In this document: one piece after another, positions 8,749-49,756 of the stretch
Layout of the letters: the number at the start of each line of letters is the position of its first letter
How positions within the stretch are numbered: the stretch's first letter is position 1
From: a virus
DNA: 49,756 bases
Strand: one strand, 5' to 3'
IMG/VR virus record: IMGVR_UViG_3300044577_000130
Location: 1 to 49,756 of that record
Notes under the pieces: generated by a model
What the model saw: only the letters and a program-made list of their open reading frames with translations
The model's database searches: none
Told to the model about the DNA's origin: nothing
Made by a program: the position numbers and the translations under genes

Positions 8749-10929
8749 TTAGGTCACCGTTGTCCACGTAAGACCAAAGTTATAGGCGTAAGCATCGCCT
8801 AAACTGTTTAACTTAGCAAGGTTATCAAGGTAAAGGTTGCCAGCAACCACAGACAACTCAGCCACCTTCCCGTCAAAGAAGTTGCTCCCAGCACCGCCAA
8901 TCGCCATGGAATCCAGGTCACCATCGCTAGAATCCACATTTGTCAGCAATGCAGCTCCGCCATTCACATAAAGCCTGGATTTGTTCTCCGTCGTCGGGTC
9001 ATCATCAAATATCACCAACCACACCTCAGCCGTGGAGGTAGCCGCAGTATCGGCCTGAGCGGTCCCAGCATTGATCACACGGTCATCCGAGGCATCCTTC
9101 TGGATAATCATGCCAGAACCCAGATTGTCGCTCATCAGGTCCTGACGCGTCCCTGAGGCAGGCGTGTCAAATACCACCACAGCGAATATCGTCACCGGCT
9201 GGCTGACCGCAGAACCCCAGCTCCCCAATGGCAAATCCAGGAAATCGCTGTTAGCCGCAGTAAACTGGGTCACCGTCCGGGCATTGACCGAATCAAACTG
9301 AAACTGCGGCGAGTTGCCTACAACCATCTGCCTAAGATGCCGACGATTGCCAGACAGGTCCTTTGCCTTCTGAACATCCTCACCGACCAGAGTCGCCTGA
9401 TTGACCCATCCCGTCCCGAGAGCTACGCCAGGAGCATCCAGAGCAGGCAAGGTAGCTGTATCTACTGCGTTGAGCCGGTCCTGTGAGGTGGCCTCGTCCA
9501 GCTTATAAAAGGCAGTCAGGTTCGTTATCCCTGGATTGCCTGCCCCTGAACCAGCCACCAACTCTTCATGGGTGCGACCATCCCCCAAGTTGTATAGATA
9601 GTCATGAGCAGCCGTAGTGAGAATCTCGTCGTAGATGTAAGGGGAATCGATATGGCCCGGGAAGAAATCACTGGGAGAGCTATCGCCAATGGCCCCTATG
9701 AGAACATCCGATGTACTTTGGAAAAGAGCAAGTAAACCCGTCTTGAAGTTTCGTGTTATAGCGCCAGCCACTTCGCTTCCTATGCCAACCTCGAGTAGAG
9801 CAGCAAAATTATCATACTTACCATAAATGAAAAACCACTGATCTGTGTTCGTAATGCCCGGAGTAACCGTAACGATATCAGTGAGCGTTCCATTATTCGA
9901 AGCAGTAAACGAAACATCACCGCCAGCCTCAACCTTTAGCGCCCACTCACGCTGGTTTCCAACAGTCTCCCACTTGGCAATCGGATAAGCATCAGAAGCA
10001 GTTGAATCCATCTTGACCCAACAACCAACAGAAATAAACCCGCCATGGTTCAGAAGAACATGATCTTCAATCCGCAGGAACTGAGTTGAGCCATTCAGCT
10101 CAACTCCCAATGCTTTGCCAACACTCGTCGTCTTATTGAAAGCATATCTGGCATTGAGCGTTACCCCCGTAAAGTTCAGGGTCTTTTCAAGAGGATCCGT
10201 GCAACAGCATGGCCCGCCAATACCTTCTACGAGTACCTCAGCAGGAAGCGTGCCTTCAGCTTCTCCAGCTTTTCCGGCACAAGTACACTCGCCTGTGTCT
10301 AGCGATGCAGAAGACGCATAAGGAAGAACCTCATGCCAGCAACAATCCGTAGGTGTAGGAGCACCCGGGGGTGTAATGAACTTGCGATACCATCGAGAAC
10401 AGTGCCTATTACATACTTCCGGCGATATAGGAGCACTGTATTCCTCATAAGTAGCTTCAAGAAAATAGTTATCTGGACCAGATGCAAAAGTAGTTACCCT
10501 CCAAAAGAAGAACGACGAGCCTATATTGACTCTAACACGCGGAACATCTAATGGCTCGATATCGACACGACCATCATCGCAATTCTTAAAAGCAGCAATA
10601 CCGCAAGTTATATCAGCTTCCTTGACTCCTCCAACCAGAATACTGCGACTAGCAAAAGTACATTTGTCAGTTTCAGGAACAACCGGCTCAAGTTTAAATA
10701 CACCCGAAGCTACCCCACACGATGCCCCAGATCTGCAACCGCCCGTAGTAGGGCCGACGGGCCCCTGAGCTACGAAGCCGTCAGGCACGGTCAACCTTAC
10801 AAACCGCGGTGTAAGACAGTTGCCACATACATCGCACTCACGCTGCACACAGCACTCGTCTTGAGTGACAAGCTTATTGTCCGCTAAATAAAGCTTGCCG
10901 CCCTTATCAACTTTGAGCTTAGTGCCCAT
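8749..10929 (-). CDS. Tail fibre/adhesin with LamG (concanavalin-like) domains
   Basis: The 726-residue protein has a Cys-rich N-terminal region (DECCVQRECDVCGNC near 25-40, more Cys pairs to about 240). A LamG-like domain follows at about 245-440, with FLRIEDHVLLN, SVGCWVKMD, a jelly-roll pattern and a GHIDSPYIYDEIL strand. A second lectin-like domain covers about 520-726, with a FDDDPTTENKSRLYVNGG strand. The second domain resembles the C-terminus of the 1,212-residue plus-strand adhesin at 44907-48545, which has FDDDP and NNSRLYVDG at the matching place. Probable surface glycan binding. The start overlaps the stop of the neighbouring fibre gene by one base. Confidence 0.8.
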   Translation of the reverse strand: MGTKLKVDKGGKLYLADNKLVTQDECCVQRECDVCGNCLTPRFVRLTVPDGFVAQGPVGPTTGGCRSGASCGVASGVFKLEPVVPETDKCTFASRSILVGGVKEADITCGIAAFKNCDDGRVDIEPLDVPRVRVNIGSSFFFWRVTTFASGPDNYFLEATYEEYSAPISPEVCNRHCSRWYRKFITPPGAPTPTDCCWHEVLPYASSASLDTGECTCAGKAGEAEGTLPAEVLVEGIGGPCCCTDPLEKTLNFTGVTLNARYAFNKTTSVGKALGVELNGSTQFLRIEDHVLLNHGGFISVGCWVKMDSTASDAYPIAKWETVGNQREWALKVEAGGDVSFTASNNGTLTDIVTVTPGITNTDQWFFIYGKYDNFAALLEVGIGSEVAGAITRNFKTGLLALFQSTSDVLIGAIGDSSPSDFFPGHIDSPYIYDEILTTAAHDYLYNLGDGRTHEELVAGSGAGNPGITNLTAFYKLDEATSQDRLNAVDTATLPALDAPGVALGTGWVNQATLVGEDVQKAKDLSGNRRHLRQMVVGNSPQFQFDSVNARTVTQFTAANSDFLDLPLGSWGSAVSQPVTIFAVVVFDTPASGTRQDLMSDNLGSGMIIQKDASDDRVINAGTAQADTAATSTAEVWLVIFDDDPTTENKSRLYVNGGAALLTNVDSSDGDLDSMAIGGAGSNFFDGKVAELSVVAGNLYLDNLAKLNSLGDAYAYNFGLTWTTVT

Positions 10930-12137
10930 CAGCAGGTCAAATCCTCACACACGGCTAATGGGATTAAACACGTAACATCAGATAACGCTACATCTGAGGC
11001 GTCAATTACATCTCCAGCTGCATTCCTAATCAAGGTTAACGTATGCTGAGTAAACCTAAGCTCAAGATCCGATGGCGGAGTTCCTCCAATAAAACCACAA
11101 GATGATATAGTTCCTAGATAAGTTGCAGTAATCTTAAGAGCAGGGTCTTCCTTAAAATCAACACTAATGGCACAAGGAGTTACGGGTGGGAGAACATTTT
11201 CATCGCAATCAGCCGATTTAAATGTGTCAATCTGCACCTCAAGCTCTTCGCAGCAAATCAGTCCAGTACAAGCTCGATGATCGTCCCAAACCAGATCCCT
11301 TGGATTAATCTGAACAGGATTAGGAAAATCGTCACCAAATTCCAGACCACATCCAATCTTCACATTTATGAAGCAATCGCCAACAGCCTCCAGTCCTAAG
11401 TTTGCAATCTGCATCGCATCAACTTTAACGCCGTCCGGACTCACATCAATCCCGCAGGCCTGTTTTACCTTCAACTCGCACTTCGGGAAACCGCTTACCG
11501 GATCAATCGATGTGTCCGTCTCCAAACCCTCGCCATCAACCTGCGCCGGATCGAAAAAGATATCCGTGCCATCCGTCGTCCCCAAACCGCAACCAACATC
11601 AAAATCATTCATATCCAAAGCTAATGTACAGGTATCGGTAACCTGCAGTCCATCTCCTGCAAGCAGAGCTGCATCGACTACTAAATCATTTGAAGAAAAC
11701 GTAAGACCGCAGCCAGCGTCCACTCTCATGGAACAGGCAGTGGGGGTGCCCACGGACTCTAGACCAAGCCCGGCAACATCCCCAGGGTCAAATATGATAA
11801 GACCACCAGTGATATCAATCCCGCAGCCTTCACCAAGAACACCACCCCCTGTCGCATCTAATAGACAGTTGTCTACATCTGGATCAGTGCTCTGAGCCGT
11901 GATATTCACGCCTTGTAGATCTTCAGTTTTAACCTTCAATTCGCCTGCGGTATTTATCACAAGCCCGCAGCCAAGCACCGGGAGAGCATCAACTGTAAGA
12001 TCCTCGCAGACCACCTTGAGCGTATCGATGATCTCGGAGATCGCGCGAGTGATCTCCTTCCAATTACGCTCCTCAGCCGGCTGCGTGCAGGGATGAGGGA
12101 CTATCTGAGGCTTAAGAGGTACGGTGCATGAAGCCAT
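10929..12137 (-). CDS. Tail fibre shaft protein with GCGL repeats
   Basis: After an N-terminal helical segment (about 20-45) the 402-residue protein is built of at least six repeats of 40-45 residues with the pattern GCGL/GCGI, a short turn, a V/F-D-P/A strand, then L-G-GL, as in ALPVLGCGLVINTAG and AGCGLTFSSND. Short beta repeats with a conserved glycine-leucine turn are typical of trimeric fibre shafts. The repeats end near residue 290; the C-terminal about 110 residues form a separate domain. It is coupled with the LamG adhesin downstream, so the pair may form one receptor-binding apparatus. Confidence 0.75.
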   Translation of the reverse strand: MASCTVPLKPQIVPHPCTQPAEERNWKEITRAISEIIDTLKVVCEDLTVDALPVLGCGLVINTAGELKVKTEDLQGVNITAQSTDPDVDNCLLDATGGGVLGEGCGIDITGGLIIFDPGDVAGLGLESVGTPTACSMRVDAGCGLTFSSNDLVVDAALLAGDGLQVTDTCTLALDMNDFDVGCGLGTTDGTDIFFDPAQVDGEGLETDTSIDPVSGFPKCELKVKQACGIDVSPDGVKVDAMQIANLGLEAVGDCFINVKIGCGLEFGDDFPNPVQINPRDLVWDDHRACTGLICCEELEVQIDTFKSADCDENVLPPVTPCAISVDFKEDPALKITATYLGTISSCGFIGGTPPSDLELRFTQHTLTLIRNAAGDVIDASDVALSDVTCLIPLAVCEDLTC

Positions 12138-14873
12138 TTAACCGAGCCGCTGGGTTCCTGAGCTAACAATCCGGGCGGTCACCTTCTCAATAGACCAAGC
12201 CCGGTTCTCACCGTTACTTAAACGTACGAGAGCTGCTCCGCCCCGCGCCCTAGGTCGATGAGTTAAGTTCAGTCCAATCGTATTCCAATTGCCACTCGCA
12301 AAAGTAGATGCCTGGAATGCATTCTCCGCGTTCTCGCCAACTCGAACCGCCCAATCCACATCTGCACCCGTAGCCCCGTTTCCAGTCACACCCACGAGCT
12401 CCGTTAAAACCGACTCACGGTCATTCTCGTCGTGGATATCAAACGGGCCATAATCCACGAAGCTTGTGATGATGTTGTTGTCGTCATCCCGATCATGACT
12501 CTCATGGAAACGACGGAGAAATCCGTCTCGACCACCTAAGATGACTGCTTGATCCTCCGGGTCCAGACCCTGAGACTCTAACAGTGCTGTGGGCTCTAGG
12601 TCCCTGTCTGCAAACTCCATGAGCCAAAAGGAGTCTGTCTCCCAATCAAACCACCAATGCTCTGTAGGGGCCTTCTGGTCCCTAGTAACGTATATGTGGA
12701 CCCCTCGACGAGCAACATCATAGGCAAGTTGAACATCTGCGTTCTCACGGTCAATGTTCAGAAGCTCGATCGGAAGCTTCTCTCGCGATACGCTGGTAGG
12801 AGTATCGCCACAACCAGGCGGCATGCGATACAGACCATCTAAGGAAAGGAAGAGCAACCCCCCGCCAGGCACATGACACCAAGCACGCTTGTCTACAACT
12901 CCAATCTTGTAAGACAGAGCATCGATACGACCTCCAAGACTGGGGTCTCCCCGCATCGTCCAAAGGGTCTCAGCTCCTCCGAAAATAATGCAGTCGTCAT
13001 TGTGTGGTATCACGGCACGGATTGGCTCACCCAGTCGACCAGCATCTGCTACGTTACCAGCAACTGCACGAGCAACATCCGTTGCACTGTAATCCCAGTC
13101 ATAAGGATTCCCTATCCGACTCATGTACCATACTTGAGGATTAAGGTGCGAGCCGGCTAAGACCATCCGGTCATTCCAAAGTGCGATGATGGGACAGCCT
13201 AGAGGAACGAATCCCTTGGTTGCATGCGCCTGCCAGATCAACAACGTATCGGACTCTGCATCGTAAACTTTCGGCGCTCTTTCAATCGTAAACGGAATAA
13301 GTGTCTCATCGGTTGGAGTAGTCAAAAGGTTGACTGTCGTTGTGACAATCGTATCAATCTGATAGCTCCGTGGGTCCACCTCTCCTTCATGACCGCCTTT
13401 AATTGTTTCGGTAACCGTAACAACCGTTGAAGAACCGCCTGTCATATCAAAGTTTGTACCAACTATCAATGGAATATCTTGATTGTCTAGCAACCCAGTG
13501 AAAGTAACGACCCAGTCATTCGTAGGACCCATACCAATGCCAATCATTGTAATATCACCAACGGCAATACTATTAAGCGCTTCAAGGCTTGTCTTAATAT
13601 CTGACGGTGCAGCACTGAATAAAATATTAGCTGTCGTTTCCCCGAAGATAGTCAAAGTAAAGTTGCCACCGCTGGTTGCATCATCAATATTAATCGTCTG
13701 CCTCTCTGTGCCTTTATCAAACAAGAAGCCAACTACATGGTCATTCACATTAGCATTCGTATTGTCGACGAAATTACCAGTAGCAGCTGAAGTAAAAGCA
13801 GAAGACGCAAGAGCACCATCAGTATCAATGGCCTCGCCCTCGCCATAGTCTGCAATGAATAGCTGCTGAAGCCGTGGCTGGGCCATCAAGAGCCGATCTG
13901 AGGCCAGGGTCAGACTACTGGAGATCTGGACCATATCCCCCATGAACTCGTCTTCCTTGTAGAGAAGACCATTAGAAGATGCAAAGATCTTCCTGCGGAA
14001 GGTAATTTCCTTTTCTGCTGTCTCGCTAGGCGTTCTGAAATATTGGATCCGGAAGCGCTCAATTTGGATTCGCTCTGGAGGAGCCGTGTTCGGCTTAAGC
14101 TCAAAACCAATCCTCTGACCCGCAGCGGCACCAATAGTCGTTGGGCTTAAAATCGTATGCTCTTTCCAAAAGCAAGAAATGCTATTGTCGGTAACCAATA
14201 CCGAAAACCAACCAGCATCCGCATAGCCATCATCTGCGCTCGTAAAAGCATCAGTGCTTGCCGTAGCCGAAGCAGCTGTAACGATGAGTGAACCCGAGTA
14301 GGCTCCATCCGAAAGCGTTAAACGTGCCCTAGCCCCATCCGCATCATTGTCAGGAGTCGTATCATCCATGCGGAAAAAGACACTGAAGGCACCTTCAATG
14401 CTACCAAGGTAGGGCTTGATATATACCTGAACTAAGTAACTGATAGACGGCGGTGTACCAACTGTATGAATCAAAGGAACGAACGCATCACGGACCAGAC
14501 CGTCACCCGTGCCACCAGCAGCAAACGCCGTCCCATCGCCAATGCTTGCCGCAGTGTTTGTCCCATGGATCGGCGTACTCCAAAGACTGCCAACCGTAGT
14601 GCCTCGGAAAGTATCCGCCCAGAAGGTATAGGCCGTCTCTTCAATACGCTCCATATGCGAGAGCATACGAACGGGATTGCCAGAGCCAAGAAGAGTGCGA
14701 TTGGCTAGACCAAGACCAGGCCGAGAACCACCGCGCTCTCGACCACTTGTGGTATGGTCTGGACGGCAGTTAAGAGAGTCCGGAGTGGTGAAGGGCGGCT
14801 GCTGTTGGAAGCCAAACTTCCGATGCAAGCCGCCGGAAGGGAACCGAAGATCCAGAATGGATTTCTGAGGCAC
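12138..14873 (-). CDS. Tail-nozzle-like protein
   Basis: The 911-residue protein has an insertion rich in beta strands (about 75-290, lectin-like, WADTFRGTTVGSLW) and a long central beta-rich region. From about 550 it contains segments typical of podoviral nozzle or tail tubular B proteins: LIWQAHATKGFVPLG, then VWYMSRIGNPYDWD, then IRAVIPHNDDCIIFG and LWTMRGDPS. These are the propeller-like strands usually found in that family. Position between head-fibre and fibre genes fits. Family assignment is by pattern only. Confidence 0.7.
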   Translation of the reverse strand: MPQKSILDLRFPSGGLHRKFGFQQQPPFTTPDSLNCRPDHTTSGRERGGSRPGLGLANRTLLGSGNPVRMLSHMERIEETAYTFWADTFRGTTVGSLWSTPIHGTNTAASIGDGTAFAAGGTGDGLVRDAFVPLIHTVGTPPSISYLVQVYIKPYLGSIEGAFSVFFRMDDTTPDNDADGARARLTLSDGAYSGSLIVTAASATASTDAFTSADDGYADAGWFSVLVTDNSISCFWKEHTILSPTTIGAAAGQRIGFELKPNTAPPERIQIERFRIQYFRTPSETAEKEITFRRKIFASSNGLLYKEDEFMGDMVQISSSLTLASDRLLMAQPRLQQLFIADYGEGEAIDTDGALASSAFTSAATGNFVDNTNANVNDHVVGFLFDKGTERQTINIDDATSGGNFTLTIFGETTANILFSAAPSDIKTSLEALNSIAVGDITMIGIGMGPTNDWVVTFTGLLDNQDIPLIVGTNFDMTGGSSTVVTVTETIKGGHEGEVDPRSYQIDTIVTTTVNLLTTPTDETLIPFTIERAPKVYDAESDTLLIWQAHATKGFVPLGCPIIALWNDRMVLAGSHLNPQVWYMSRIGNPYDWDYSATDVARAVAGNVADAGRLGEPIRAVIPHNDDCIIFGGAETLWTMRGDPSLGGRIDALSYKIGVVDKRAWCHVPGGGLLFLSLDGLYRMPPGCGDTPTSVSREKLPIELLNIDRENADVQLAYDVARRGVHIYVTRDQKAPTEHWWFDWETDSFWLMEFADRDLEPTALLESQGLDPEDQAVILGGRDGFLRRFHESHDRDDDNNIITSFVDYGPFDIHDENDRESVLTELVGVTGNGATGADVDWAVRVGENAENAFQASTFASGNWNTIGLNLTHRPRARGGAALVRLSNGENRAWSIEKVTARIVSSGTQRLG

Positions 14874-34009: not shown

Positions 34010-34824
34010 TGATACCCATGACTATGGTTCAGCCATTCCGCAGATGATACCCACAAGATCAGTGAAGCCAGCGATATGGTTATACCCAAAAACCGAGTGA
34101 AACCAGTCGACACATGATACCCAAGTAGACAGTAAATCCAGTCTCCGCGTGATACCCACGCAAATCGTGAAGCCAGAAACAGTGTGATGCCCACGATCAC
34201 AGTGCAACCACACGATCGGTGATATCCAGGTCTGTCCGTGCAGCCATGTGGAATGTGCTATCCATGCACCGGGTGCAGCCATTATCAGCGTGATAACCAA
34301 GCTGGTTGTGCAGCCGAGTCATGAGTCATATCCAAGGAAGAAGTGCAGCCAACTTAGGCGTGATAACCATTCGAGGTATGCAGCCAGCGAGTTCGTGATA
34401 ACCATTACGATCGTGCAGCCCATTAGACCGTGATAACCAGCTCAAGTGTGCAACCAACGCAAACGTAATAACCAGAGAACACGTGTAGCCAAGCAGCCCG
34501 TGATACCCACGGTAACGGTGCAGCCACGAATTACGCGGTACCCACCCGTCACGTGCAGCCATGCAATGCGTGATAACCACTGCCGCCGTGCAGCCAGGAA
34601 ACTAGTGACGCCCAATGCTCCAGTGCATCCAGCCATCCCGTGCTAACCATATCTCACGTGAAGCCAATTTCCAGGTTGTAAACAGCTGATGAGTGAGAAC
34701 CACACTCGCCCAAGTGTTACCCAGACTATGTAGCCAAATAATCCATGATGACCAAATTGCCCGTGCAGCCAAGCCGCTTGTGATACCCACGGTTAGAGTG
34801 CAACCAAAACAAAAGCGAGAACCA
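34010..34824 (+). repeat. TIGR-like dual-spacer array 1
   Basis: About 24 copies of repeat R1 (consensus GTGATAACCA or GTGATACCCA) alternate with about 22 copies of repeat R2 (GTGCAGCCA). Both kinds of spacer are 8 bases in nearly all units, so R1 starts fall every 35 bases: 34010, 34045, 34080, 34115, 34150 and so on to 34816. Spacers are all different. The leftmost R2 copies are degenerate (GTTCAGCCA, GTGAAGCCA, GTAAATCCA), and spacing breaks down between 34676 and 34746. The array precedes the Nop-like protein gene. Repeats are shown in plus-strand sense; the transcribed strand is not proven. Confidence 0.9.
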
Positions 34825-34940
34825 AAATGACCGAAGCGAAGCACTCCTTATAACTAAACCAATTTCCAACCCTTCGCAGGTCAATCCTTCGTCAGTTGTG
34901 AAAAGAAATCTCCGCTTCCTCTAACTTAAGGATAATACTG

Positions 34941-35885
34941 ATGGGAACCGCAGTAAAAGAAGCAAAAGACCTGACCGATATAGAGCGATGGCTCGCTCAT
35001 GCACGACTAGAAAAGGATATGCGCGAAGCAGCCGCCGACCTGGCTTATCATGAGATCCAAACACTAGTCCGATTTTATTACACCTACCAAGAATTGAGAA
35101 AGGGCTCGGATAACGTAGTCCGCTCAAAAGATAAAGAATCCAATATCGTCATCGATTGGCTCAGCGAGACCAATCGGCTTATGGAGCTGAACGCTCAAGC
35201 TTCATTCCTCCCATTCACGCAGAAATACCGGGTAGGACGATGGCTCACAAGCATCACCGGAATAGAAAAGGTTAACTCCGCTTGCCTTATGGCATGGATC
35301 GATATCCGAAAGTTCGAGACCGTTTCCCACCTCTGGTCCTACGCTGGACTAAACCCAAACCAAGAATGGAAGAAAGGCGAGCAGCGACCATTCAACATGA
35401 AGCTAAAAACGCTGCTCACCTTCAAAATAGGCGAATGCTTCATCCGAGCCATGAACTCCAAAGGTGCGTACTACGGCCCCCAATATGCAATCCGTAAGAA
35501 GTTTGAGTGGGAACGAAACCTGCGAGGATACAACGATCAATACATTAAAGAACACATTGATAAACTAGGGAAAAGCACCGATGCCTATAAATATTACGCA
35601 GGATTCTACGGCGTCGACGGGGACGAACCCAAGCTATTAGGCAAAGACAAAGGGCAGCCCATGCTACCACCAGGCCAAATCCATAACCGAGCCCGACGGT
35701 GGGCCGTTAAACTGTTCGTATCACACCTGTATGAAGTATTCCATGAGGATTTCTACGGGCGCAAGCCTGTGGACCCCTGGATCATCAACAAGGAACTTGA
35801 TGGCCATCAACACACCCATATCATCCGACCCCCAGGATGGCCTGTTGAAGACGGCCTTGGCCTGGACAAACTATATGAGAAATAG
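34941..35885 (+). CDS. Tas-like protein with Nop/Transposase_20 domain, no visible nuclease
   Basis: An AAGGATA Shine-Dalgarno precedes the ATG. The 314-residue protein begins with helices (about 10-95), followed by a helix-hairpin-helix core ITGIEKVNSACLMAWI and FETVSHLWSYAGLNP (105-139), then RPFNMKLKTLLTFKIGECF (149-167) and a basic helix RARRWAVKLFVSHLYEVF (250-267). The GI-KV-A...W-YAGLNP arrangement and the late basic helix match the C-terminal Transposase_20 part of IS110 transposases and the related Nop domain of TIGR-associated (Tas) proteins. The IS110 DEDD domain is absent and no RuvC or HNH motif is seen. Flanked on both sides by TIGR-like arrays, it is probably the guide-RNA-binding effector, of the nuclease-free type. 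The 34825-34940 gap holds no gene. Confidence 0.75.
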   Translation: MGTAVKEAKDLTDIERWLAHARLEKDMREAAADLAYHEIQTLVRFYYTYQELRKGSDNVVRSKDKESNIVIDWLSETNRLMELNAQASFLPFTQKYRVGRWLTSITGIEKVNSACLMAWIDIRKFETVSHLWSYAGLNPNQEWKKGEQRPFNMKLKTLLTFKIGECFIRAMNSKGAYYGPQYAIRKKFEWERNLRGYNDQYIKEHIDKLGKSTDAYKYYAGFYGVDGDEPKLLGKDKGQPMLPPGQIHNRARRWAVKLFVSHLYEVFHEDFYGRKPVDPWIINKELDGHQHTHIIRPPGWPVEDGLGLDKLYEK

Positions 35886-35897
35886 CCAAACCTGAAG

Positions 35898-36572
35898 TGA
35901 GGCCCATAATCGTCGTGCAGCCACGGCAGAGGTGATAACCATGCTCAAGATGCAGCCACATATACGATGTTTTCCAGTGGTCCAGTGCAGCCATTGATAT
36001 TGTTTTAAACAGTACCCGCGTGCAGCCACGCCTACAGTGTTTTCCAATGAGCCCGTGCAGCCAGAATTGTCGTGATAACCAGTTTCAGCGTGCAGCCAGC
36101 CTAACGGTTTTAAACATGTTCGATGTGCAGCCACATTGCTCGTTCTTACCATCAGAGTCGTGCAGCCAACCCATCGGTTTTAAACATCGTTCAGGTGCAG
36201 CCACATCTTTTGTTCTAAACATAACAGCAATGCAGCCAGAAAAGGTGTTCTTCCACAGATTGCACGTGCAGCCAAATCCAGTGTGATAACCAGCTTGATT
36301 GTGCAGCCACCATCTTTGTTCTAAATACAACGGTAATGCAGCCACCACTGAGGTGAGACCCATAACCGCCATGCAGCCAATCAAATAGTTTTAAACAGGC
36401 CTAGGATGCGGCCCTGTCTGCGGTTTTAAACAAGCAGTTTGTGCAGCCACGAAGGCAGTTTTAAACAGTCATTGCGTGCAGCCAATTGCGTACTTTTAAA
36501 CACGACCGTCGTGCAGCCAGCGAACGAGTTCTTACCAGCTAGCGTGTGCAGCCATATAGAGCGTGGCAACCA
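35898..36572 (+). repeat. TIGR-like dual-spacer array 2
   Basis: Twenty R1 and nineteen R2 copies in strict alternation, R1 starts at 35898, 35933, 35968, 36003, 36038 and onward every 35 bases to 36564, with only a 34/37-base irregularity at 36247-36284. R2 is almost invariant (GTGCAGCCA, four copies ATGCAGCCA). R1 is of several classes here: GTTTTAAACA most often, also GTGATAACCA, TGTTTTCCA, GTTCTTACCA and GTTCTAAACA. Spacers are 8 bases and distinct. It begins twelve bases after the Tas-like gene in the same orientation as array 1, so it could share that gene's transcript. Confidence 0.92.
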
Positions 36573-38605: not shown

Positions 38606-38861
38606 GGTAAACTACGCAAAGAATGACGACTGGTACAGAAGACACCACATTCGATACGAGAAACGTGTCGAACTGGAGGGTCTGCTGTGCCAGTCATGCT
38701 CAGGTGCCGGAGGTGAAGTAGATGTGATTCTGGAAGACGGCACGGGCCCTTGGGAGCCATGTGGATGGTGCGAAGGCACCGGATATGTAACTCGATGGCT
38801 GCGAGGTAAATGGCTGAGATACAAGAAAAATCTTAAAGAAACAGGCTCTGGCTATGAGTAA
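38595..38861 (+). CDS. DnaJ-type zinc-finger protein
   Basis: The 88-residue protein carries two DnaJ central-domain motifs, CQSCSGAGG and CGWCEGTG, about 25 residues apart. A basic tail follows. Phages often carry such small CxxCxGxG proteins of unknown role; chaperone or zinc-binding function is inferred from the motif only. Confidence 0.65.
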   Translation: MTTKVNYAKNDDWYRRHHIRYEKRVELEGLLCQSCSGAGGEVDVILEDGTGPWEPCGWCEGTGYVTRWLRGKWLRYKKNLKETGSGYE

Positions 38862-39087
38862 TACCACTCAGAAGCTAACCAACCGGCAACGTGAGATCCT
38901 CGCCATCATCCGGAGCCTCACCAAACGGCGACGCGGTATCCCGCCCACTATCCGTGAGATCGCCGATGTTGCCGATGTGAATATCGCTGCAATCCAAGGG
39001 CATCTCGTTGCCCTGAAAAGAAAGGGGCAAATCAGCCACACCCCCCATATCGCACGGGGAATCCTGGTCACCGGCTCAAAGCCATAA
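38854..39087 (+). CDS. Stand-alone LexA-type DNA-binding domain
   Basis: The 77-residue protein closely follows the LexA N-terminal domain pattern: LTNRQREILAIIRS, then G-PPT-REIADVADV, a HLVALKRKGQI helix and a HIARGI end. The LexA protease half is missing, so it would not self-cleave. It may act as a phage repressor or compete at host SOS boxes. It overlaps the zinc-finger gene and sits next to the CsrA homologue. Confidence 0.8.
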   Translation: MSNTTQKLTNRQREILAIIRSLTKRRRGIPPTIREIADVADVNIAAIQGHLVALKRKGQISHTPHIARGILVTGSKP

Positions 39088-39128
39088 ACCTTCCCATTGC
39101 CCCAGCTTCCCCTATAGTGATGAGAATC

Positions 39129-39323
39129 ATGCCTCTGATCCTATGGAGAAAACCCGGAGAGCAAATCGTTATCGGAGATGATATCTGGATCACCGTCGTT
39201 AAGATCGAAGGAATCCTCGTCCATCTCGCCATCGAAGCCCCAAAACATATTGAAATCGAAAGAGAAGAGCGATATACAGCCAAGAAACTGGGCCTGCCAC
39301 CACCCGAAGACGATGACGAATGA
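39129..39323 (+). CDS. csrA: CsrA/RsmA-family RNA-binding regulator
   Basis: With start at 39129 the 64-residue protein reads LILWRKPGEQIVIGDDIWITVVKI...APKHIEIEREE, matching the CsrA strand order (LIL-R--GE-I-IGDDI, APK-I-I-REE). The LTR of LILTRK is replaced by LWRK. An earlier ATG at 39117 is possible. CsrA dimers bind GGA-loop hairpins and block translation; both structured RNAs in this genome carry a GGAA-loop hairpin. Post-transcriptional control of host or phage RNA is inferred. Confidence 0.8.
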   Translation: MPLILWRKPGEQIVIGDDIWITVVKIEGILVHLAIEAPKHIEIEREERYTAKKLGLPPPEDDDE

Positions 39324-39739: not shown

Positions 39740-39756
39740 ACCGTGGAGTCTCTCAA

Positions 39757-41492: not shown

Positions 41493-41793
41493 GGTTCCCG
41501 CTGCGCCACCGTGCGTGGCGGTTATAGTCCATCCAGATGGCTATCTACAAGCCTTCTCTGATGAAGTATGGCAGGTGAAGTTCTTTACTATGCGGGCTAT
41601 GCCAGATGACCCAGATTACCTAGAAGAAGAGCAGGAACTAGAGGATTCTATGGAACCAGCATACAGACGGCTTTACTGGCCAGGCATGGTCAAGGCGACT
41701 GGAAATACCCCATGGACGACTACAAGCCGCAGCCAGGAGATGTGTGGTTTTTCGCAGGACGACACTGGAAAAGCCGCCTCATTGCCTTCTTAA
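41395..41793 (+). CDS. Probable phage protein with uncertain start
   Basis: The frame contains CVAVIVHPDGYLQAFSDEVWQVKFF, of a form common in short phage proteins, but its first ATG lies 98 bases inside the previous gene and it overlaps the next gene by 82 bases. A later start is possible (ATG at 41590). Function unknown. Confidence 0.4.
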   Translation: MSKSKTANRKFDEIAWNLRFQRQQDPDLLSKSEVPAAPPCVAVIVHPDGYLQAFSDEVWQVKFFTMRAMPDDPDYLEEEQELEDSMEPAYRRLYWPGMVKATGNTPWTTTSRSQEMCGFSQDDTGKAASLPS

Positions 41794-42416
41794 CCGTCCC
41801 TGCTTGGATTCCGTCAGTATCTGCCCTTCTTGTCCTTTTCGCCCATCTTACCATTGGCGCTGCATACGTTGCTTTTGATGGCTGTCTGATTGTTTTCGGA
41901 CTCTGGTTTTGTATTGTGCATTACAAAATCAGTCATGTTGGTATCGTCGCGCCGCATCCATCTGCTGACAAGCTGATTCTGTATGAGTCGACCACTCTCA
42001 ATGCTCACCCTTGTCTCTTAATGGGCAAGACCATCAAAGGGATTCAGGCCCATAAGCTAGGCCAGCGCCGGGAAAGCTACCGTGGTCGTATCCTCGTTGC
42101 TCGAGTACGGAATGGATTCCAGCTCGATGAGGGCCACAGGATGGCCCTGAGCGACTGGTTGGTAGGTCAAGTGGGTCGTGAGTACAACACGCTAGGTGCT
42201 GTTGTATCAGGCAGTAGGGTCCTTAAGAGGCTCCTGGTGCCCATACAGCTGACTCACGGCTGGTTGCATGGATTCTGCTCAGAGCTCGTCCTGCTCGGTC
42301 TGAAGCGGGTCAGCTTGGTCAATCCTGGGGTGCGAGCCAGCTGGGTGACACCGGCCCGGCTCTATCGGATCTGCTGGCAGTCGGATAGATTTGATTTTCA
42401 ATGGCTGAAGCAATGA
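41712..42416 (+). CDS. Membrane-associated NlpC/P60-like (YiiX-type) protein
   Basis: The 234-residue protein opens PGDVWFFAG, has hydrophobic helices at about 32-70, then ISHVGIVAP (H75), LILYESTTL (E92) and HGFCSELVLLG (Cys189), the order of a circularly permuted papain-like NlpC/P60 (YiiX-type) domain. It could cleave peptide or amide bonds of the cell wall, or lipid substrates, at the membrane. It lies in the lysis/envelope block. Confidence 0.6.
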   Translation: MDDYKPQPGDVWFFAGRHWKSRLIAFLTVPAWIPSVSALLVLFAHLTIGAAYVAFDGCLIVFGLWFCIVHYKISHVGIVAPHPSADKLILYESTTLNAHPCLLMGKTIKGIQAHKLGQRRESYRGRILVARVRNGFQLDEGHRMALSDWLVGQVGREYNTLGAVVSGSRVLKRLLVPIQLTHGWLHGFCSELVLLGLKRVSLVNPGVRASWVTPARLYRICWQSDRFDFQWLKQ

Positions 42417-43504
42417 CCATACTCCGCTTAAAGCATAACTTCGTTTCTCTCCTCTTAGTGTTCTGTCTTGCTGGTGAGGAGGGCTGCGCTACTGCCCTAG
42501 GCTTAGAGCCGGCTGTCTGTGTCGTTTCCACAGATCTAGGAAATGGCCATTCTGGTCGTGGTTCTGGTGTGTTTGTCCATGAATACGATGGCAAGGCCTT
42601 GATTCTGACCAACTCTCATGTGATTCGCGGTGCTATAAGCCAGACCAGCTTCACTGTCCAATTCCACGACAAGGGCTGTTCTGAAGCACGTGGGCTCTGG
42701 CATGACCCGCAGTGGGACCTAGCTTTATTGCTCGCTTGGGCCCCGCCGGGGATCGAGCCAATCAAGATAGCGGACTATACGCCCAGGATTGGTGAGAGTG
42801 TCACGGTCCACGGCTGGGGTCCTTCCAAGCATTATCGGGAGGTCAAGGCAGCTGTTACTGGCAATGCTAGGCCAAGGAGGCATGCCAGCGATGATATGAT
42901 TGAGGTCTCAGCAGTCGTCCGCCAAGGCGATTCTGGCGGTGCTATCCTCAATGAGGATGGTGAATTGCTGGCTGTCCTCTTCGGGACGAACCCTAGTACA
43001 GGGACTATCGGCTCCAATTGCATGCGGATCCGAAAGATATGGGAGGCCCAGTTTCTAGCCGGGCGCTGCCGGCCTTATGGTCGCAGAAGGGCTCCTATCC
43101 TTGTTCCTGTCCGGCCTAGACAGCCGCCGCAGCCTCCTGCCTATGAGCCGCCTGCTCCGATAGAGGATCCAGAGGAGGACCCGCCGCCGCCAGCTCCTCC
43201 CATAGAAGGTCCGGAGGGACCAGTCGGCCAAAAAGGAGAAAAGGGCGAACGTGGGGAACCTGGAGAAGATGGACTTCCTGGTGCACCCGCTTCTTTTGGA
43301 GATTTGCCATTGGTCATGCTCCAGGTCATAAACGAGCAGGGCGAGACGATTATCATCTCAGGTAGGCTGGGCGAGCCTATCGTGTTGCCTCCTATGACCT
43401 TCCAAATCCTGGACGAGAAGAATAATATTCTCCAGTCGACTACCCGGCACCTCGGCGGCGTGGTAAAGTTCCGTTTGGTGCCCGTAGACGCATCTAACAA
43501 CTAG
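42413..43504 (+). CDS. Secreted trypsin-like serine protease with collagen-like repeat
   Basis: I chose the ATG at 42413 (ATGA overlap). The 363-residue protein has a signal-peptide-like start (about 1-28), then the S1 protease core with LTNSHVI (H69), WDLALLL (D102) and GDSGGAI (S174). The HtrA-like domain ends near 220. A Pro-rich linker follows, then nine collagen-like Gly-X-Y triplets (residues about 266-292, GPEGPVGQKGEKGERG) and a beta-rich C-terminus. Collagen-like stretches often make trimeric phage fibres. It may process proteins at the cell surface or be an exported virion component; the substrate is unknown. Confidence 0.75.
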   Translation: MTILRLKHNFVSLLLVFCLAGEEGCATALGLEPAVCVVSTDLGNGHSGRGSGVFVHEYDGKALILTNSHVIRGAISQTSFTVQFHDKGCSEARGLWHDPQWDLALLLAWAPPGIEPIKIADYTPRIGESVTVHGWGPSKHYREVKAAVTGNARPRRHASDDMIEVSAVVRQGDSGGAILNEDGELLAVLFGTNPSTGTIGSNCMRIRKIWEAQFLAGRCRPYGRRRAPILVPVRPRQPPQPPAYEPPAPIEDPEEDPPPPAPPIEGPEGPVGQKGEKGERGEPGEDGLPGAPASFGDLPLVMLQVINEQGETIIISGRLGEPIVLPPMTFQILDEKNNILQSTTRHLGGVVKFRLVPVDASNN

Positions 43505-43540: not shown

Positions 43541-43831
43541 ATGGCAAAGCTAGGAGAAGATGGGACGCTGGATATCCCGGTCCCAGGTCAACCAGGTAAA
43601 GGAGAAGAAGAGATGCCTATCGATGGCTCAGAACAGTATCTGTCATTTGAAATGAGCGCGCTCGCGCAGACAGGCAGGATTGCCCAGAACAACTTTGTGA
43701 CGGTGACCAAGATCGTCGACTACGATTATCTTGAGGGCAAGCACATGGTTAGTCTGACCGAGGCACTTGGGGTCCGGGAAGTGGCCAGTAAGATGGTTCC
43801 CGCTGGTCCTAACACTATTCCTCCCACCTAG
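43541..43831 (+). CDS. 96-residue protein, unknown
   Basis: A small hairpin (GCGGAG and CTCCGC at 43509-43524) lies before this gene. Acidic Gly/Pro-rich N-terminus, then mixed alpha/beta with ALAQTGRIAQNNFVTVTKI. No family recognised. Confidence 0.5.
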   Translation: MAKLGEDGTLDIPVPGQPGKGEEEMPIDGSEQYLSFEMSALAQTGRIAQNNFVTVTKIVDYDYLEGKHMVSLTEALGVREVASKMVPAGPNTIPPT

Positions 43832-43841
43832 CTCTTAATCT

Positions 43842-44123
43842 ATGGAAGATCCATGGTTAGAGCTTCGGCAGCAGATATCAGAGCGGCAAGCGAACTTCGT
43901 CCAGGAGAATAAGGACCTAGAGATCGCTTACTTAAAGGGTAATGTTCGTAAGTTTGTCAAACGCCAGCTCAAGCGGTTTCGCCAGGAGATAGGGGCTGAA
44001 GAAAAGGAAGCGGAAGATGCCGGAGGCGAAACCGTCCTCGGAGACGACCACGAAGCCTTCATCCAGCAGCTCCTCGACGGAGGATGGCCCAAGCGGCCCT
44101 CTGAACGAGAAGCTCCTCCATGA
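43842..44123 (+). CDS. 93-residue charged helical protein, unknown
   Basis: Strongly helical and charged (LRQQISERQANFVQENK, then KFVKRQLKRFRQEIG). It ends in a different frame within the next gene, with which it overlaps by about 107 bases if that gene starts at its first ATG. No family recognised. Confidence 0.5.
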   Translation: MEDPWLELRQQISERQANFVQENKDLEIAYLKGNVRKFVKRQLKRFRQEIGAEEKEAEDAGGETVLGDDHEAFIQQLLDGGWPKRPSEREAPP

Positions 44124-44598
44124 TTCACCAAAAGAATCTTGGAAGGAAGAGACCAAGGAGAACTGGATTGGCCTGAAAATGGCCTATGACGGCATGGTCT
44201 TGGACGGCATTAACCGTCGCGGGCGCCTGGTGGAAAGACTGGTCAAGAAGACGCAGGATGGGACAATAGGCCAGCCGGGGCCGGACAAGCCCCAGGAGGC
44301 CGATATGGGCGTCCGAGTAGGATCCGACGATGTAACCCATAATCATTATGAAGTGGCCGCTCCTGCCGCTCCTGATAGTCGGAGAGCTCCTCCTGAGGGG
44401 ACGGAACCGATTGAAGGATTCAAATGGGAGTCTGCAGTTAAGCCTTTGATCGCTCTTGCTACTGCCGCCGGGCTAGGCTTTGGAGCTGCAAATCTGATAA
44501 ACTCTCTATCTTCTAAGGATAGCCCAGAATTCGTAGATACGGATACGAACACTATCCAGCAGCTTGAACTTGTAGAAGATGGAGACCCAGAGTCATGA
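44017..44598 (+). CDS. Membrane-anchored protein, start uncertain
   Basis: The 193-residue frame begins with a Ser/Thr/Glu-rich stretch overlapping the previous gene, which could be chance; the ATG at 44179 would give a shorter protein. It has a C-terminal hydrophobic helix (about residues 146-166, PLIALATAAGLGFGAANLI). Its stop is coupled (ATGA) to the next gene. Function unknown. Confidence 0.45.
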   Translation: MPEAKPSSETTTKPSSSSSSTEDGPSGPLNEKLLHDSPKESWKEETKENWIGLKMAYDGMVLDGINRRGRLVERLVKKTQDGTIGQPGPDKPQEADMGVRVGSDDVTHNHYEVAAPAAPDSRRAPPEGTEPIEGFKWESAVKPLIALATAAGLGFGAANLINSLSSKDSPEFVDTDTNTIQQLELVEDGDPES

Positions 44599-44891
44599 AG
44601 ATTGCCTTCCTTTCTGCCCTATTTATGCTGATGCCTGCCAGCGAGGCCTTGGGCTATTGGCGAGGACCTGCATGGGGCTGCCGTCATCGGTGTTCCCCGC
44701 CTCCTGTCGCAGCCGTTCCCATGGTTCCTGTGATCCAGACGATACCTGTCCAGTATCAATGGGTCCTGGTCAGTAATCGAAACGGTCGTCGGTTCCGCTG
44801 GCGGCTGATTGGCGTTCCTCAAGCAGGGAATGCTCCGCTTCAGGCCGCTCCTGTTGTCCCGTTGGCAGCTCCACCTGCCCCATCTCTTTAA
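44595..44891 (+). CDS. Secreted proline-rich protein, unknown
   Basis: The 98-residue protein has a signal peptide (MKIAFLSALFMLMPASEALG), a few Cys (GCRHRCSP), then a VPVQYQWVLVSNRNGRRFRW segment and a Pro/Ala-rich tail. It is probably exported. It lies just before the giant adhesin. Confidence 0.55.
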   Translation: MKIAFLSALFMLMPASEALGYWRGPAWGCRHRCSPPPVAAVPMVPVIQTIPVQYQWVLVSNRNGRRFRWRLIGVPQAGNAPLQAAPVVPLAAPPAPSL

Positions 44892-44906: not shown

Positions 44907-47900
44907 TTGTCTGCAACTGCCCGAGCGGCTAAGCGTCGTCGTTACCTCCGTCCCTTCACGGATGTGGATACGATGACGATGTTGATGTTCAACAACCTGC
45001 AGGTCTGCTGGGATTTCACGGACACCACGGAGCTAAACGTTACCGGCGCCCGACACTTTGTGGCAGCTAGTTCCGAGCTGCTTGATCATGCTGACGATGT
45101 GAAGCTAGACCATAGCCAGAATATTACGGTCATGGCTTGGTTTAAGCGGGACACGGTTGGCGCTCTGTTTGTTGATATAGCCAGCAAATCAGATACGGGA
45201 ACGAAAACAGAATGGGCAATTCGCATCGATGATGATGATTTGGAATTCCACACCGGCGATGGTGCGGGGACTAATATTGCTGGTTTAGTTTCTGCTGTTG
45301 ATACTACAGATTTATGGTACTTCGCGGTTGGTGTGCATGATGACCCTACGACAACAACTCGTATCTACGGAGGTGATGAGAATGGCGTTGCACTTGCCAC
45401 TGCTGCTGATACGGATGCATCAAATGTAAATCAAGACACAGAATCATTGCGAGTTGGTGCTTCTTTTAATGGTACTATCCTTACGGATTTCTTTAACGGC
45501 GATATAGACGAGCTTGCTATCTGGCATAAATCGATGACTACGGATCAGGTTACTTGGCTCTACAACGGAGGAGCTGGCCGCAGTCTTACCGATGTGACGA
45601 CTAGCATTGAAGCAGATAACCCAGGTCTTGGCAGTCTCGTTGCCTGGTATGAGATGAACGAGGACGGCGGCATTGCTATGAACAGTGCCCCTGCTGGTGG
45701 TTTGCATCTAACTGAAACTGGGTCCATTGAACTTGTTCCCGGTCATGTGTTGCAGACAGTTGGTGCTGAAAATCGATCAGGTGATTTTGCTGCGGCAAAT
45801 GCCAACCTATTTGATCCGCATATCCCTGTCACTGCTTATCCGTTCTCCTTTGCTATTTGGGTTAACACATCGCAAGTTGCCCTTGGAACAGCAATTGGAA
45901 TGGGCAGTACCACATCAGCAACTAACTATGTAATACTAACAGTATCTGCAGCAGGAAATGCTCAGTTTCAAGTAAGAGATGGCGGTACTGACAATGTAAT
46001 TATTGGGTCTTCTATTAATGACAGCAATTGGCATCTCCTTGTTGGAACTGCTCTCAATGCTACAACTCGGAAGTTGTATGTTGACGATATTGCAGCAGTA
46101 ACCGGAGCTGTTTCTGCAACTTTCCCGACTCTAGATGACTTCCGCATCGGTGCTCTAAATAATGGCGGGACAGTTGGTACGGACTGGGATGGTTTCTTAG
46201 ATGAAGGCATGCTGTTCGATGCTGAACTTACAGATGCTGAGGTCCTGACTCTTTACAACGACGGAGGGGGTGTACTTGCCGAGAACCTATCTACCGTCGA
46301 CGCCACGCTCGCTGCCAAGATGACAAACGCTTGGCCGCTTGATTTCAATGCCCAGCCGCAGCCGCTGGATGGAGCTGCCGATTTTAGCCCATTTGCTAAC
46401 CGTCATCTTATAGCAGATCTTCCAGTAGCAACTGCATATCCTTTTTCAGTAGCAGTTTGGATTAAAGGCAGCAGCGTGGGAGATAGAGCCCCTTTTACTA
46501 GTTCTCAATTCGCTGTTGGTAATCAGTATTTCATTTTATTAGGAGACGCAAGTGGTACCTTGCGATATAAGATTGTAAATGGAGGATCTCAAGCTCAAGT
46601 TTTTACGGTTGGTTTAATTAATGATGGTGATTGGCATCTAATAACTACAGTATCTGCAGCGTCAAACGATCACCGAGTTTATTTTGACGATCTTGCCGCA
46701 GTTACAACTACTAGCACAGTTACGTTTCCTACTGGACTAGATAATACAATTATTGGAGGTTGGATCAAATCTGGTGACCCAGCTCTTAAAAATCAGTGGA
46801 TTGGTCAAGTAGATGATGCGATGGTATTCAATGCAGCTCTTACCTCAGGAGAACGGCTCACTCTCTATAATAGTGGTGCTGGTTTAAATGAGTCTGAGTT
46901 AAAAGTTGAAGATGCAACTCTTCATGCAAAGATAACAAACTACTGGCAGCTTGATAACGCTGCAGGTCTTGGCGATGGTGCTTCTAGCTTTGATGGAGTC
47001 GATCAATACTTCGACAATTCCGGAGTCATAGCTCCTCCCTTTGCGACGAATGAAACTGGAATTGCTATAGCCTTATGGATTAAGACAACTGCTACAGGAT
47101 TGGATACTTGCTTCTCTCAGTCTCGTTTTGCAGATACCGATGTTTATCTTCATCTGCAGCTGCAAGCAGACGGGACGATGAGCTACATCATCAAAGACAG
47201 TGTAGCCACACTGACGCTCAATCACTCGACGGTTATTAATGATGGAGATTGGCATTTAGTTTCTGCAACTTCAAAACAAACTGTCCTGTTTTCAGATAAT
47301 TGGGATGATCATAAGCTTTGGATTGATGATATTGCTGCAGTAACTAGCTCAACAAGCGTTACCCCGTTTGAATCTCCTGCTGGTGCTCATACTGACCTGG
47401 CTATCGGAGCATTGAAAGCTAACAGCACCGTCACTGAGTATTGGAATGGTGATTTGGATACGGTCATGGCCTTTCCTAGGCACTTCCTAACCGACGCTAA
47501 CGTAACCACGCTTTGGAATAAGGGAGCTGGATATCTTCCATCCCAGTTGGAGAACGTAGATGCAACGCTTCACGAAGAGATTGGTAGCTTCTGGAACTTG
47601 AACGAAGCTTCGGGCGCTGACCTTAACAGTAGTTTTCCAGCTAGGATACACCTAACCAATAACAACACGGTTACGGCAGCCTCGGCTCCGGCTCCTCATG
47701 GAATTGACGGTCTTGGTAAAGATATCATTGGTCGTTTGGGACTAGTTAATATCAACACCGTCACTGCGGCTACAGATCAGATTCCTACTGGACGCGGCGG
47801 AGAAGAACGCGACGCTATTGGCGAGTTAGGCGTAGATAACACAGGTGTTGTAGATGGCCAGGGCATCTTTGCAGGCCGGCTCCTCAACCCGCTTATCTCT

Positions 47901-48545
47901 ATAGCTACAGATACGACAGGCGGCGGCAGGGACCTCACTCAAGGTACTGTGGCTCTCAGGCCTGAGTTCTTTGAGAACGTGGTCAATGGCCAGCCAGGCG
48001 CCTTCTTTGAGAGAAGCCGCGGTACTTACCTGGATATCACGGCAGCGAACTGGGGATCAACGATTGCCCAGCCTTACACTTTCGTCATAGTTTTAAGAAC
48101 TGATGCGCCAACTGACAACCTTCAGCATACTTATGTTGATAGCCAAACGGCAGCCAATCGCAATGTAATTTACAAGGCACTAACGACAAACAATAACACG
48201 ATCTTCCAAAACACTGCTCTCACCGGTAATGCGGCCAGCGCAAACGCGGAGATATGGGTTGTAGTTTTTGATGATGATCCTGCAGCAACTAATAACAGTC
48301 GCCTCTATGTAGACGGTATTTTAAGGGCGGGACCGGGAAACACTTCTACTGTTAGCAGTTTTGTTATTGAAAGCATGACAGTTGGTGATGACTACCTTCA
48401 TACATCTCAGGAATTAGAAGGATTCATCTTTGAGTTATGCCTGATGACGGGTGATGCGGTTGTCGATCAACTGAAGAATCTAAATCAAATCAATGAGGCC
48501 CTGGCTTCTACTTACGGAATTTCTTACACGCCGATAACAAGCTAA
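44907..48545 (+). CDS. Giant multi-LamG adhesin / tail fibre
   Basis: A TTG start at 44907, preceded by AGGGG, is used (1,212 residues); an ATG at 44973 is the alternative. Five lectin-like (LamG/concanavalin-fold) domains are visible in tandem. Four share the core NITVMAWFK- or FAIWVNTS-like strand and a (D/E)xLWY/LTLYN-G-G closing strand. The fifth is a C-terminal domain with IAQPYTFVIVLRT and VVFDDDPAATNNSRLYVDG. That last domain resembles the end of the minus-strand adhesin at 8749-10929. Probably binds surface glycans of the host or of a particle. It ends in TAATG overlap with the next gene. Confidence 0.8.
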   Translation: MSATARAAKRRRYLRPFTDVDTMTMLMFNNLQVCWDFTDTTELNVTGARHFVAASSELLDHADDVKLDHSQNITVMAWFKRDTVGALFVDIASKSDTGTKTEWAIRIDDDDLEFHTGDGAGTNIAGLVSAVDTTDLWYFAVGVHDDPTTTTRIYGGDENGVALATAADTDASNVNQDTESLRVGASFNGTILTDFFNGDIDELAIWHKSMTTDQVTWLYNGGAGRSLTDVTTSIEADNPGLGSLVAWYEMNEDGGIAMNSAPAGGLHLTETGSIELVPGHVLQTVGAENRSGDFAAANANLFDPHIPVTAYPFSFAIWVNTSQVALGTAIGMGSTTSATNYVILTVSAAGNAQFQVRDGGTDNVIIGSSINDSNWHLLVGTALNATTRKLYVDDIAAVTGAVSATFPTLDDFRIGALNNGGTVGTDWDGFLDEGMLFDAELTDAEVLTLYNDGGGVLAENLSTVDATLAAKMTNAWPLDFNAQPQPLDGAADFSPFANRHLIADLPVATAYPFSVAVWIKGSSVGDRAPFTSSQFAVGNQYFILLGDASGTLRYKIVNGGSQAQVFTVGLINDGDWHLITTVSAASNDHRVYFDDLAAVTTTSTVTFPTGLDNTIIGGWIKSGDPALKNQWIGQVDDAMVFNAALTSGERLTLYNSGAGLNESELKVEDATLHAKITNYWQLDNAAGLGDGASSFDGVDQYFDNSGVIAPPFATNETGIAIALWIKTTATGLDTCFSQSRFADTDVYLHLQLQADGTMSYIIKDSVATLTLNHSTVINDGDWHLVSATSKQTVLFSDNWDDHKLWIDDIAAVTSSTSVTPFESPAGAHTDLAIGALKANSTVTEYWNGDLDTVMAFPRHFLTDANVTTLWNKGAGYLPSQLENVDATLHEEIGSFWNLNEASGADLNSSFPARIHLTNNNTVTAASAPAPHGIDGLGKDIIGRLGLVNINTVTAATDQIPTGRGGEERDAIGELGVDNTGVVDGQGIFAGRLLNPLISIATDTTGGGRDLTQGTVALRPEFFENVVNGQPGAFFERSRGTYLDITAANWGSTIAQPYTFVIVLRTDAPTDNLQHTYVDSQTAANRNVIYKALTTNNNTIFQNTALTGNAASANAEIWVVVFDDDPAATNNSRLYVDGILRAGPGNTSTVSSFVIESMTVGDDYLHTSQELEGFIFELCLMTGDAVVDQLKNLNQINEALASTYGISYTPITS

Positions 48546-49285: not shown

Positions 49286-49756
49286 CTATTTAGCTTTCTT
49301 ACGGCGTCGAGCTTCCTCTTTAAGACTATGATTTCGGATTAGGTTGTTCCTGGCGATCTTTCTAGTATCCGAAATGATATCTTGGATTCGCTTGTAATCT
49401 GAGTCCGTTGGCTTCTCTAGATTGAAAGTGCTCAATCGTCCTTTGACACGATCGCTCGCCCTTTCGCCAGCATCTTTGACGAATTCCTCATACTGCTCCG
49501 TCGTCAGATCTATGGGCTCTCCGAGGACCGTGATCTGCCTCTGAGGCATGCTTGGCTTAGTAGCTTTAGGATGGTCACGCTGATAAGCCATCATGATCCG
49601 GTCACCAGGATGAACATCATCAACGCTTAACTTGACTGGAATAAAAAGTTTCCAAAGGAAATCCGTCAGAGGAGCAGTGCCCGTTGGATCAATGATGCGG
49701 CCATCTCGCCGTCCCCATGGAGGTTCATGGCGAGGAATCAAACGACCCCACAGATC
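49286..49756 (-). CDS. Giant internal virion protein, C-terminal part
   Basis: In frame with the gene at 1-5037 across the circular join; the 141 bases 49616-49756 repeat bases 1-141. The unique part encodes the last 109 residues. The C-terminus is highly basic (KEEARRRKKAK end). In a linearised genome this would be a 3' fragment, but the circle gives one intact gene. Confidence 0.85.
   Translation of the reverse strand, partial: DLWGRLIPRHEPPWGRRDGRIIDPTGTAPLTDFLWKLFIPVKLSVDDVHPGDRIMMAYQRDHPKATKPSMPQRQITVLGEPIDLTTEQYEEFVKDAGERASDRVKGRLSTFNLEKPTDSDYKRIQDIISDTRKIARNNLIRNHSLKEEARRRKKAK

Follow-up and report, generated by a model that had tools for sequence, protein, structure and literature searches.

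A putative exported S1 protease joined to a collagen-like stretch in a phage of probable planctomycete host, with relatives in a viral contig and a planctomycete genome

Introduction

Three-fold symmetry is common to HtrA-type proteases and collagen. Among phages, collagen-like proteins trimerise with the aid of adjacent domains, and EPclA of E. coli O157 prophages is a collagen-like tail fibre whose Gly-X-Y repeats stand beside other folded domains (PMC3368898). Phage exit from planctomycetes, which have an unusual envelope, is not addressed in the little literature that we found, and a recurrent exported protease would provide a concrete gene with which to approach it. Here we describe a predicted S1 protease gene with a collagen-like stretch, found in an IMG/VR virus record of 49,756 nt (the window, analysed over its whole length). 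Its domains are individually known; the newness lies in their conserved combination, rather than in a new enzyme or system. Moreover, a compact natural protease-collagen fusion may be of use for multivalent enzymes.

Results

The window begins and ends with an identical direct repeat of 141 bp (1-141 and 49616-49756), so the genome is probably complete at about 49.6 kb, and it looks like that of an independently replicating phage. Matches to terminase and major head protein indicate a tailed phage, and IMGVR_UViG_3300021440_000041 contains a related head-tail block in which most matched proteins share roughly 30-38% identity. On the minus strand, an ORF running from 5037 to 1 probably continues across the terminal repeat to 49286 (>1679 aa) and is a candidate internal or ejection protein. 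The genome also encodes CsrA (39117-39323; 5.7e-18), a stand-alone LexA DNA-binding domain (38854-39087; 2e-16) and two LamG/ConA-like proteins, one at 8749-10929 and the other, at 44907-48545, described below. Units of 35 nt, GTGCAGCCA-N8-GTGATAACCA-N8 with variable spacers, form a long array at 34028-34830 and recur at 35916-36161, and their length, not being a multiple of three, rules out a simple coding repeat. These arrays flank on both sides a plus-strand ORF (34941-35885) whose Pfam match is to the C-terminal IS110-type Transposase_20 domain only (E 1.3e-5), and an IS110-like gene in this position looks unusual.

The gene of interest (42413-43504, plus strand) is a 363-aa ORF that starts at the ATG at 42413, with a stop codon ending at 43504. 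An alternative in-frame ATG lies at 42401; the start at 42413 overlaps the stop codon of the upstream gene as ATGA. The product is laid out as S1 protease, Pro-rich linker, collagen-like repeat and beta-rich tail. Residues 1-29 (42413-42499), a basic n-region followed by a hydrophobic stretch, resemble a signal peptide by hydropathy, and the protein looks exported on this basis. The S1 domain (Trypsin_2, HtrA-like fold; about residues 35-215, 42515-43057) was identified by Pfam (E 5e-16, 60.2 bits against a cut-off of 27.6) and by structural modelling, AlphaFold2 being confident over most of the double beta-barrel (roughly residues 31-215) and the model matching DegP, DegQ and DegS in Foldseek. 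The catalytic residues, H69 in NSHV, D102 in WDLALL and S174 in GDSGG, stand in canonical order and are invariant in all 10 aligned sequences. By profile, triad and predicted fold, the product is a putative S1 endopeptidase.

The Pro-rich linker (about residues 221-265, 43073-43207), with a PVRP..PP motif common to a relative described below, leads into nine Gly-X-Y triplets containing KGE/KGE/RGE pairs (residues 266-292, 43208-43288). The C-terminal tail (43289-43501) is beta-rich in the AlphaFold2 model at low confidence (pLDDT about 33-51), and internal duplication within it was not significant. Pfam found neither a PDZ domain nor a fibre or fibre-attachment domain in the protein. The first-pass annotation had described an exported S1 protease with a complete His-Asp-Ser set and nine Gly-X-Y triplets before a beta-rich end; this description agrees with our results, the coordinates of the gene being exact and the signal-like start a matter of hydropathy.

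The run of nine triplets exceeds chance, the longest in 20,000 same-composition shuffles being six, and across all frames of the genome no other run reaches five triplets (X and Y not Gly). Its match to the Pfam Collagen profile (1.5e-4, 21.9 bits) falls under the cut-off of 27.2, which is passed by both collagen-bearing relatives, L207 and L106 (30.3 and 33.9 bits). Matches to PHROG tail families are limited to this stretch. KGE and RGE pairs are typical of stabilised bacterial collagens. Since HtrA-type proteases and collagen have the same symmetry, a trimer is plausible, and by analogy oligomerisation of the protease is the most plausible task of the collagen-like part.

The same fusion was found in two further sequences. 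Scanning with the window protein aligned to that of L106 detected L207, a 66-kb viral contig that encodes at 1148-2209 a 353-aa homologue, similar along the entire length at 35% identity (local score 301, whereas 300 shuffles reached 64 at most). This protein has the motifs NYHV, WDLA and SGDSGS, the PVRP..PP linker and 12 triplets, and its gene is close to a large fibre-like gene. L106, a Planctomycetota MAG, was detected by a pattern scan for GDSGG and collagen spacing, the other matches to which were mostly Gly-rich chance ones; its protein runs from signal through S1 domain and linker to 15 triplets and ends in a short beta-like tail. Both relatives start signal-like by hydropathy. The L106 tail and that of the window protein show no significant similarity. 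The L106 gene lies directly downstream of a tRNA-Phe gene, with no whole prophage or phage structural module there, so the gene can exist outside a lytic programme. The first-pass annotation had counted a lack of the triplet region in relatives as evidence against its reading; both relatives carry the S1-collagen order. Recurrence in a distant virus and in a planctomycete genome therefore points to a genuine recurring design.

Among described phages the combination is scarce. Against 50,697 INPHARED phage records, tblastn with the window protein returned five weak, protease-only matches and with the L207 homologue none, in keeping with the earlier remark that such a fusion is uncommon in a phage. 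Exact-peptide scans found no relatives, either of the window protein in collections of viruses and genomes or of the terminase and upstream gene in viral contigs, and the capsid relatives (L002-L004) have no detectable homologue of the S1-collagen protein. One further candidate, L208, was rejected, being a collagen-repeat protein that lacks an S1 domain. Collagen is present in 85/294 planctomycete genomes, with an S1 fusion at none of the 30 best collagen loci.

We then compared S1 domains across phyla using a profile of three proteins (the window protein, L207 and L106), scoring about five candidates per genome in 392 Planctomycetota genomes and in the phyla of a Verrucomicrobiales MAG (388 genomes) and an Acidobacteria MAG (396 genomes). 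Besides L106, four planctomycete S1 matches scored 107-121 bits, compared with 61 and 64 bits for the top matches in the two remaining phyla; the profile includes one planctomycete sequence and may favour Planctomycetota. The S1 domain of the window protein shares 40% identity over 179 aa with L214, and in pairwise comparison L214 and L212 both outscore L207. In a tree with several long branches, in which L106 is unplaced, it clusters with L212, L214, L232 and the prophage protein of L231 (82/88), separate from HtrA-like rows. An exclusive S1 sister relationship between the window protein and L207 is thus unsupported, the former being nearer to collagen-less planctomycete proteins, and the collagen part may have been gained or lost repeatedly. 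Profile, pairwise score and tree all point to planctomycetes; the virus therefore likely infects a planctomycete host, and its S1 domain looks host-derived.

The overlapping upstream gene (41712-42416, plus strand) encodes a membrane protein that has two hydrophobic segments and shows, by eye, a papain-like order of motifs (GDV.F, SHVGIV, GREY, FCSE). It had no Pfam match at E up to 10 and no match to phrog_1128, and its model has a pLDDT of 32. SH.GI and CSE are common to this protein and a G003 gene in alignment, the pairwise score being not significant. Neither profiles nor pairwise comparison supported a place among the permuted papain-like amidases (C92) or in another family. A planctomycete chromosome, L231, carries at 9373-11307 a 644-aa protein composed of a papain-like domain (phrog_1128, 8.5e-9; C92 E 0.056, below the cut-off), a TM segment, an S1 domain, a Pro-rich linker and a coiled-coil-like tail. 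Terminase small and large subunits and portal are encoded just downstream of this gene, which places it in a prophage. Between it and terminase, 11868-13523 encodes an ABC-ATPase and GNAT acetyltransferase protein (phrog_11143, 3.8e-90). By analogy, fusion of the two in L231 suggests that phages of this kind pair a papain-like enzyme functionally with an S1 protease.

The five ORFs described next are on the plus strand. Two small ORFs (43541-43831 and 43842-44123), the first lying between the S1-collagen gene and a gene for a hydrophobic segment, precede or overlap the latter (44017-44598), which encodes a protein with one such segment by hydropathy. In both L106 and L207 a protein laid out in a similar way comes after the S1-collagen gene; in sequence the window protein of 44017-44598 is weakly similar to that of L106 (z 4.7), with no similarity to that of L207. 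Next come a small ORF with a Cys pair that looks exported by eye (44595-44891) and a 1212-aa protein with four Laminin_G_3 domains in Pfam (44907-48545), a candidate receptor-binding fibre. After the S1-collagen gene, the window and L207 both have two small ORFs, of which one bears a hydrophobic segment and the other looks exported, and then fibre-like genes. Homology of these small genes is unsupported, the layout being alike and the sequences not. A small membrane protein (39751) and a lipoprotein-like ORF (40599) lie nearby, as in lysis regions; a Pfam scan of about 30 of the genome's proteins found no peptidoglycan hydrolase.

Discussion

Our preferred reading, to which we give a probability of roughly 45%, is that the phage encodes an S1 endopeptidase with the HtrA/trypsin fold, which the host exports and whose collagen-like stretch keeps it in oligomeric form, most likely as a trimer. 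In a planctomycete host, the protease would act beyond the cytoplasm, cutting envelope or surface proteins late in infection and so letting the virus breach the envelope, and the overlapping upstream membrane protein may work with it. The order of the domains, the catalytic residues, the fold as predicted, the overlap with the upstream gene and the presence of the fusion in relatives are observed; export, trimer, host, timing, substrate and the part played by the upstream gene are inferred from them. The intact triad, the confident barrel matching DegP, DegS and DegQ, the recurrence of the fusion, the closeness of the S1 domain to planctomycete proteins, the papain-S1 fusion of L231, the ATGA overlap, the lysis-region-like neighbours at 39751 and 40599 and the lack of a peptidoglycan hydrolase among the roughly 30 proteins scanned all support this reading. 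Counting against it, the next large downstream gene is the LamG fibre candidate, which fits a role in adsorption too, the L106 copy stands beside a tRNA gene away from a whole prophage, and the papain-like nature of the 41712-42416 protein is drawn from motifs. A wider proposal, in which planctomycete phage release is protease-based and not purely muralytic, combining a collagen-trimerised exported S1 protease with a membrane-bound papain-like enzyme, is improbable as it stands.

The main rival to late breach is remodelling of the host surface, the exported protease trimming or occluding surface proteins to block superinfection or alter the host, as a moron-type gene and not an agent of lysis. 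Such a role would suit the L106 copy beside tRNA-Phe, away from any phage structural module, the L231 prophage homologue, which together with its ABC-ATPase/GNAT neighbour precedes terminase, and the host-derived look of the S1 domain. However, with its 141-bp terminal repeat the genome looks like that of a phage that is complete and replicates independently, and the gene lies in a run of plus-strand genes, where it overlaps a membrane gene; we regard this role as unlikely, if a serious contender. The surface itself, where the first-pass annotation had placed a trimeric protease, is plausible as one of several places of action.

Alternatively, the protein could be part of the virion, a trimeric, fibre-like tail accessory whose protease domain cleaves the receptor at adsorption. 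Collagen-like side-tail proteins are known (PMC3368898), the stretch resembles phage tail fibres through its PHROG tail families, the LamG fibre candidate adjoins and the L207 homologue is close to a large fibre-like gene. Yet the signal-like start of all three proteins points to action outside the cytoplasm and would remove them from the site of virion assembly, and Pfam gives no fibre-attachment domain; owing to the export signal above all, a virion fibre is improbable. A further question is about the stalk and is compatible with either of these roles: the collagen-like stretch may be a flexible low-complexity spacer that forms no triple helix, on an ordinary monomeric or HtrA-like exported protease. 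With nine triplets only, a score below the Pfam Collagen cut-off and nearest planctomycete S1 relatives that have no collagen, a spacer is conceivable, but strict Gly periodicity is preserved in two divergent relatives with longer runs, and the KGE/RGE pairs are those of stabilised collagens, making it quite unlikely.

Among known systems, the HtrA/Deg serine proteases (DegP, DegQ and DegS) give the best PDB matches by sequence and fold and share the S1 fold, the triad and export with the phage protein. The phage protein differs from these in having no PDZ domain, GDSGG in place of GNSGG and a collagen-like C-terminus. EPclA-type fibres are likely trimeric side-tail proteins of the virion that lack a protease domain, whereas the window protein has one. 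A collagen-repeat protein, so named, of Mimivirus LCMiAC02 (A0A4D5XEW7) has a model that matches the S1 fold; it belongs to a giant virus of eukaryotes and has about 20% identity, the likeness being one of name and model match, and it hints that the fusion was perhaps invented independently. The closest S1 sequences found are those of planctomycete proteins with a signal and an S1 domain; these have no collagen stretch, L212 and L214 ending in a C-terminal TM segment as membrane anchor and L232 being longer. Lastly, the L231 prophage protein resembles the phage protein in its S1 domain, Pro-rich linker, oligomerisation-type tail and papain-like partner, but is one fused protein and has, by eye, a coiled-coil-like tail where the 42413-43504 protein has collagen.
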